Positions 32,943-54,260 of a stretch of 64,000 nt of DNA are shown here, one piece after another. The stretch is taken from NCBI RefSeq assembly GCF_022170825.1, contig NZ_CP081878.1, forward strand, positions 1,080,001-1,144,000. Direction: 5' to 3'. The notes under the pieces were generated by a model. That model made no database searches, was not told the origin of the DNA, and worked only from the letters and a program-made list of their open reading frames with translations. The translations under genes were made by a program, and so were the position numbers. The DNA comes from Exiguobacterium acetylicum. Its GTDB lineage: Bacteria; Bacillota; Bacilli; Exiguobacteriales; Exiguobacteriaceae. Within the stretch, counting starts at the first letter, position 1. Every line of letters begins with the position of its first letter.

Positions 32943-32950
32943 AACGAAAG

Positions 32951-33180
32951 ATTAAGCGATGACGAAACCGAAGTAAAAACCATCTCCCTGTTTCAGAGAG
33001 CACGTGGCGCTGCGAACGTGTACACAGATGGTTTTGAATTACAGTTTCTGAGCTTCTTGTGTAAGCAAGCGGAGCACACCGTTATCCCAATCAAGTGACT
33101 CAGTCGATGACTGGGTAATCAGGGTGGTACCGCGGCTTTCGTCGCCCCTGTCGAACAATACGTTCGGCAGGGGCTTTTTT
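32951..33180 (+). ncRNA. T-box riboswitch, probable tRNA-Tyr specificity
   Basis: The T-box sequence AGGGTGGTACCGCG is at 33121-33134; its TGGT pairs with an ACCA tRNA end. Stem I can be drawn: GAAAC (32964-32968) with GTTTC (33044-33048), AGTA motif at 32972-32975, AAAACCATCT (32976-32985) with AGATGGTTTT (33026-33035), and a distal hairpin at 33001-33020. The specifier loop on the 3-prime side is GAATTACA, giving UAC (33040-33042), a tyrosine codon followed by a purine. A terminator ends the leader at 33144-33180. Tyrosine makes sense because the gene it controls synthesises tyrosine. Confidence 0.88.
33144..33180 (+). terminator. T-box-controlled terminator
   Basis: GCCCCTG...CAGGGGC stem with GTCGAAC/CGTTCGGC inner pairing, then six T. 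The left arm is the one that pairs with the T-box sequence in the antiterminator. Confidence 0.88.
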
Positions 33181-51704: not shown

Positions 51705-51737
51705 AACGGGTCCACCTGTAGAGGGGGACCCGTTTTT
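51705..51737 (+). terminator. Terminator of the ABC-2 operon
   Basis: AACGGGTCC / GGACCCGTT stem followed by five T, between convergent genes. Confidence 0.85.
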
Positions 51738-52264
51738 CAATGCTTAAGCGACAATTGATTGTATGCCTCGATTATTTTTTGATATTGGATCTGTGTCGAT
51801 AACGAAGCATCTAGTATGAGAACCGGCGAAATTGATCGTTCCATTTGATATTGGTGTTCTGCGAACGTACCAATCATCGAAGGGTCCGTTGCCGTGTGAT
51901 AGGTCCGGCACCAGTCGAGAAATTCATTGTAGCCTGTGAAATCTTTGTAGCGCGCTTTTTCTCGCGCGATAAGTCGTTCCATCCGAACTGTTTCGTCGAG
52001 CGATAAAAATACTAGTAAGTCTCGATTAGTGAAGCCGTCGGGATGCCAAGCAAAGACGGAACCGGAAACGATGTAGTCGTTATGAGACGCGAGGTCTGCT
52101 TCATACAGGGCGAACCGTTCAGCAACAGTTCGTTTTTCGGTGAACATCGTATCTTTCCATAAATAGTGATCGGTATCAATCCAAGGGATCTGCTCGGCTT
52201 GTCCAATGAAGGCGCCGAGCGTACTCTTTCCGGTACCGGAACCGCCGATGATTTGAATACGCAT
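51737..52264 (-). CDS. P-loop kinase-like protein (adenylate kinase/FlaR type)
   Basis: 175 residues. Walker A GGSGTGKST at 7-15, DTDHYLWKD as a substrate-binding element, and a lid-like region with REKARYKDFTGYNEF. It resembles the group annotated as topology modulation protein or adenylate-kinase-like. Its substrate is unknown. Its transcript probably starts near 52452 and carries a leader of nearly 190 nt with five hairpins. Confidence 0.75.
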   Translation of the reverse strand: MRIQIIGGSGTGKSTLGAFIGQAEQIPWIDTDHYLWKDTMFTEKRTVAERFALYEADLASHNDYIVSGSVFAWHPDGFTNRDLLVFLSLDETVRMERLIAREKARYKDFTGYNEFLDWCRTYHTATDPSMIGTFAEHQYQMERSISPVLILDASLSTQIQYQKIIEAYNQLSLKH

Positions 52265-52304
52265 GAGAAATTTCTCCTTTCATCATGATGTAATGGCACG
52301 CAGA

Positions 52305-52434
52305 ACAGGCCCGGGTATAATGCCGGACCTGTTGCTTGGAAGAATGAATTCTCCCTATGTCGCCTTATGCAAGCATAAGACATGGAATCGAGAGGCAGTG
52401 CCTCTAATAGGAAGCCGATGCAGGTCAGCCTCCG
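52305..52434 (-). other. Five consecutive hairpins in the leader of the P-loop kinase gene
   Basis: Within 130 bases lie five complete stem-loops: 52305-52334 (AACAGG-CCGG / CCGG-CCTGTT), 52339-52356 (AGAAT/ATTCT plus GG/CC), 52358-52384 (CTTATGC/GCATAAG plus GTC/GAC), 52392-52406 (AGAGGC/GCCTCT) and 52411-52434 (GGAAGCCGA / TCAGCCTCC with G-U pairs). Gaps between them are 1-7 bases. No T run follows, so these are not terminators. A minus-strand promoter at 52459-52487 would transcribe them as the 5-prime leader of the kinase. I do not recognise a known riboswitch class. Confidence 0.6.
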
Positions 52435-52458
52435 CGCTACGTACCAATCGTACTTTTA

Positions 52459-52487
52459 TCATACTGATTCCAAGAATTGGTGTCAAA
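52459..52487 (-). promoter_or_regulatory. Strong SigA promoter on the minus strand
   Basis: On the minus strand TTGACA (52487-52482), 17-base spacer, TATGAT (52464-52459). The predicted start near 52452 leaves a leader of about 188 nt before the kinase ATG at 52264. Confidence 0.75.
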
Positions 52488-52521: not shown

Positions 52522-52561
52522 TCAAAAGAGAGAATAACGATGATTAGAGGAGGAACGACCA

Positions 52562-52654
52562 TGGCAGATTGGGGCATCATGCTGACAGGCGTCGTCATTT
52601 GCGGATGGTGCATCTTTAGTGCCATCTATGACGATTTCATCCGTCGCGTATAAG
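52562..52654 (+). CDS. Small membrane protein, 30 residues
   Basis: An ATG at 52562 preceded by an excellent GAGGAGG (7 bases away) opens a 30-codon frame ending in TAA at 52652-52654, just before a strong terminator. The peptide is acidic at the start (MADW), has one hydrophobic segment (about 5-22, with two cysteines in ICGWC) and ends DDFIRRV. The ribosome site, complete frame and terminator make it a convincing short gene, probably a single-span membrane peptide. Function unknown. Confidence 0.7.

Positions 52655-53997: not shown

Positions 53998-54260
<263 letters not shown>

Follow-up and report, generated by a model that had tools for sequence, protein, structure and literature searches.

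A conserved structured RNA is predicted on the minus strand of the window, the 64,000-nucleotide stretch of the Exiguobacterium acetylicum genome analysed here (contig NZ_CP081878.1, positions 1,080,001 to 1,144,000). The best overall explanation, which we consider probable, is a genus-specific small RNA (sRNA) that was ancestrally free and is now the 5'UTR of a kinase mRNA in one clade. The first ~70–97 nt of the leader would correspond to the 5' part of the sRNA gene, which appears to define a new sRNA family. The first-pass annotation had described the locus as the leader of a P-loop kinase gene. This does not hold as a defining role: in 10 of 19 genomes the RNA follows the same promoter but ends at a terminator of its own, with no kinase behind it, and the core RNA is therefore independent of that gene; the description is correct only for the derived state in a clade of nine genomes. 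The same annotation had also suggested an unrecognised regulatory RNA, and this is supported by conservation far above the neutral level, by compensatory changes in helices H1, H2, and H3, and by the lack of an Rfam match.

A BLAST search with the leader gave matches in 18 of 61 genomes (that of the window and its relatives), all belonging to one genus. Half of the matching genomes align along the whole leader and half only along its first ~80–95 nt, because in the latter the terminator follows at once, without a kinase. A covariance model built from the first 72 columns (the first ~70 nt of the RNA) detected the RNA in every one of the 19 Exiguobacterium genomes (genus in the GTDB sense); among the named carriers are E. 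sibiricum 255-15, E. antarcticum DSM 14480, E. undae DSM 14481, E. indicum, and E. flavidum, the last being the most divergent (E-value 5.4e-8). The model had no matches at E ≤ 1e-5 in 380 other Bacilli genomes, no match was found in the phage and plasmid collections searched, and no family of Rfam 15 matched the RNA at either the gathering or lax thresholds. Weak model matches in the sister genus (E-values from 8.7e-5 to 0.2) were rejected as homologues; those that were read are other hairpins in unrelated places, with an AAGCCGA..TCGGCTT-like stem, and most of them are terminators. Inspection of 11 sister genomes revealed no such RNA in the DNA beside the small ORF that adjoins the RNA gene (see below).

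The RNA has its own predicted promoter directly upstream, TTGACA-17-TATGAT (52458..52486, minus strand), which is conserved throughout the 19 genomes of the genus. The promoter scan bore out the earlier description of it as a textbook minus-strand promoter, with a sigma-70 match of 11/12 that makes it the top site of the region. The spacer CACCAATTNNTGGAATC is almost invariant genus-wide, which suggests that the promoter is regulated, and it may contain an operator. The promoter motif occurs only once in the genome, even with up to three mismatches allowed, and as a unique motif it was rejected as a regulon signature. The spacer includes the heptamer TGGAATC, and its complement GATTCCA lies within the RNA (52383-52389, minus strand); both are conserved, and E. 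flavidum has only the promoter copy, without the copy in the RNA. This pair is possibly the site of a regulator and possibly a coincidence. The predicted RNA start is at ~52453-52451, and the first 20 nt of the RNA, GUACGAUUGGUACGUAGCGC (52434..52453, minus strand), form a conserved single-stranded 5' end.

The minimum free energy (MFE) of segment 52290-52448 of the minus strand is -72.6 kcal/mol, compared with -45.9 ± 4.0 kcal/mol for dinucleotide shuffles (z = -6.76; none of the 200 shuffles was as stable), and none of the 2126 other 159-nt segments sampled from the window folds as stably. The terminator-bearing free relatives of the RNA have fold z-scores from -6.8 to -7.5. All five hairpins that had been noticed earlier are present (H1–H5, 52433-52304, minus strand). 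A sixth helix, P1, which encloses them and had been overlooked, pairs GGUACGUAG (52437..52445), a stretch shared with the conserved 5' single-stranded segment, with CUGCGUGCC (52295..52303), which is specific to the kinase clade; it closes a six-way junction in both the MFE and centroid structures. H1 (52410..52433) has a 9-bp stem and an invariant CCUGCA loop and is the sole helix traced in all 19 genomes. It is followed by H2 (52391..52405), with a 6-bp stem, and by an unpaired GAUUCCA (52383..52389), conserved in 18 of the 19 genomes with the exception of E. flavidum. The position of H3 (~52357..52383) is occupied by a different sequence in the other clades. H4 (52338..52355) and H5 (52304..52333) are found in the kinase clade only, H4 at the place where the relatives have their intrinsic terminator and H5 with 11 of its 13 stem pairs invariant and no T run behind it. 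The previous statement that the hairpins are not a row of terminators stands for the window, where none of the five is followed by a T run; it needs the qualification that the form found in the relatives ends in a true terminator, which has been lost here. The ribosome-site hairpin GAGAAATTTCTC, also proposed earlier, turned out to be private to the genome or species of the window, and relatives read, for example, AAAGGAGCCGATTGTC.

The nine genomes of the kinase clade are identical (100%) in the 5' 20 nt, and their mean pairwise identity reaches 98.8% in the 71-nt core and 99.5% in the promoter, compared with 62–75% at fourfold-degenerate positions in the kinase, miaA, and permease genes. The added part (H3–H5) has an identity of 91%, which is still above neutral, and the 3' strand of P1 has the lowest value, 85%. 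The covariance check proposed in the first-pass annotation revealed compensatory changes in three helices of the related leaders. In H1, 99% of pairs are kept across all clades, and double-sided changes occur at four of its pairs; H1 and H2 together are 99–100% paired, H2 having double-sided changes at two pairs, and H3 has two such pairs within the kinase clade. H3–H5 and P1 are 98–100% paired in this clade. P1 itself is paired in 98.1% of cells with one-sided changes only, and is supported, not proven, because its 5' strand is an invariant core segment kept without a partner in other clades. The minus strand can be assigned as the RNA strand, as its G-U pairs would become A-C mismatches on the opposite one. 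No conserved coding sequence was found in the RNA: possible starts vary in place, length, and frame, and none that has a ribosome site is common to all genomes, so a small ORF encoded in it was rejected.

Ten of the 19 genomes, including E. sibiricum, E. antarcticum, E. undae, and E. flavidum, combine the same promoter and 5' domain with an intrinsic terminator and have no kinase at this place. In nine of them, a strong terminator comes immediately after the series of promoter, 5' segment, H1, H2, GAUUCCA, and third hairpin; in E. flavidum, the terminator stands after a replaced second hairpin (identified by inspection, the terminator scan having given none). The predicted stand-alone form is thus a gene of ~120–130 nt between the ABC permease gene and the block of a 30-aa ORF, miaA, and hfq. 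In the other nine genomes (the genome of the window and eight relatives, with E. indicum belonging to this kinase clade) the intrinsic terminator is missing, H4, H5, and P1 are present, and the kinase gene lies downstream. The gene order (ABC ATPase, permease, (kinase), RNA, 30-aa ORF, miaA, hfq) is constant with or without the kinase, and the orientation at the locus is permease> <sRNA smORF> miaA> hfq>. On the miaA tree, the nine kinase-bearing genomes form one clade with a support of 100/100, and the terminator form is represented in each of the two remaining groups as well as in the genome that diverges most. Without an outgroup, and with several of its deepest forks open, the tree does not fix the root; the terminator form has the wider distribution and is probably ancestral.

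The kinase-like ORF (PRK06217-like, 175 aa; 51737..52264, minus strand) stands behind the RNA in one clade only, where each genome has a single copy, in this position. Nine terminator species have an orthologue of it (64–70% identical) elsewhere, with unrelated upstream DNA, and the only match in E. flavidum is a distant one (27%). The simplest reading of this distribution is that an sRNA gene that was already there lost its terminator and gained the kinase gene as its downstream neighbour. The divergent 30-aa ORF (MADWGIMLTGVVICGWCIFSAIYDDFIRRV; 52561..52653, plus strand), a fixed neighbour of the RNA gene upstream of miaA, is present in each of the family's 38 genomes, which span two genera, and probably encodes a small membrane protein. 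Further along, the hfq terminator of the window (54007-54255) contains ~220 bases of nearly pure C, while in relatives L114 and L118 it is a compact GACGACCGGGGGGTCGTC hairpin; this tract can be explained either by an assembly or sequencing artefact or by expansion. A T-box leader (125 bits) is located elsewhere in the window, at 32950-33152 on the plus strand.

We infer that the ancestral RNA was a free transcript of ~120–130 nt, made from its own sigma-A promoter and ending at an intrinsic terminator, and that base pairing in trans is its most likely mode of action. The likely seeds would be the invariant unpaired 5' segment (GUACGAUUG.U.CGUAGCGC) and the CCUGCA loop of H1. In the clade of the window, with the terminator lost and the kinase gene downstream, the sRNA would now be made as the 5'UTR of the kinase mRNA, and with read-through into that mRNA it would have to be either processed free or act as a part of the messenger. 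H4, H5, and P1 would compact the added part into a closed domain that shields the 5' end or marks a cut site, and in this way may protect, delimit, or mask the sRNA. Two limited target scans of the genome, for long complements and for start codons with a complement of the loop, revealed nothing convincing.

The location of the RNA bears directly on the possibility that it is a cis-acting leader in which the six-way junction governs translation of the kinase, stability of its mRNA, or read-through, perhaps via switching of P1. It precedes the kinase without a terminator in nine genomes, and the pairing and conservation of H4, H5, and P1 there leave room for such a role. However, a consistent location upstream of a regulated gene was not observed, the core and promoter being equally present in the ten genomes with no gene before the terminator; the kinase orthologues at other loci lack the leader, and the ribosome-binding site lies outside the fold, in a less conserved region. 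We therefore regard a cis-acting leader as unlikely. Structured 5'UTRs with a multi-helix junction, as in the kinase clade, resemble cis leaders and riboswitches such as the T-box, but the Exiguobacterium RNA is conserved without the downstream gene, matches nothing in Rfam, and has no visible expression platform (a terminator or a helix pairing with the ribosome-binding site).

Binding of a protein or a ligand by the core is a possible alternative. The invariant parts, one hairpin loop and a short unpaired stretch, could form a protein site, which would suit an RNA that titrates an RNA-binding protein rather than pairing with targets; inspection revealed no repeated loop motif like the GGA of CsrA-type sponges, and we judge such sequestration quite improbable. 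Tightly packed palindromes can also be repetitive elements, and a former mobile repeat or an accidental set of functionless hairpins was considered. This is very hard to reconcile with the fixed synteny, the compensatory changes, and the conservation of the core, and an origin from a repeat or MITE was rejected, as the genome has only one copy.

Intergenic trans-acting sRNAs of Bacillales, such as RsaE/RoxS and FsrA, have a sigma-A promoter, stem-loops, unpaired conserved segments, and an intrinsic terminator. The anatomy of the RNA in the terminator-bearing relatives (promoter, unpaired 5' segment, CCUGCA hairpin, further hairpins, and terminator) is of this type; unlike these RNAs, it is confined to one genus, has no Rfam match, and by inspection lacks a C-rich anti-Shine–Dalgarno seed. 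The only sRNA work found on the genus (PMC10837837) counts PredGsRNA predictions in Exiguobacterium; the available text of that paper was not found to name individual sRNAs, and its predictions may include the present locus.

Known examples of bifunctional 5'UTR RNAs include Rli51 of Listeria (PMC11394854) and the sRNA derived from the rhlI 5'UTR of Pseudomonas (PMC6786874). Here, too, a regulatory RNA is made from the promoter of the downstream gene as its 5'UTR; however, each of those RNAs is described as the 5'UTR of its own gene, whereas the relatives in Exiguobacterium show a stand-alone sRNA gene that gained a downstream gene. The likeness is one of arrangement and implies no sequence relationship, and dual action in Exiguobacterium is a proposal only. 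Conceivably, though with a low probability, the free sRNA gene became a bifunctional sRNA–mRNA, in which the new P1 covers the old seed and pairing depends on processing of the mRNA. If so, one transcript would be both a trans-acting sRNA and the kinase mRNA.

The RNA adds an undescribed and well-supported sRNA family to a genus noted for its extreme habitats, cold and salt among them. As the same RNA is a free gene in some close species and an mRNA leader in others, interconversion between sRNAs and 5'UTRs becomes testable, and the evolutionary before-and-after of a stand-alone RNA becoming an mRNA leader is unusually clear.
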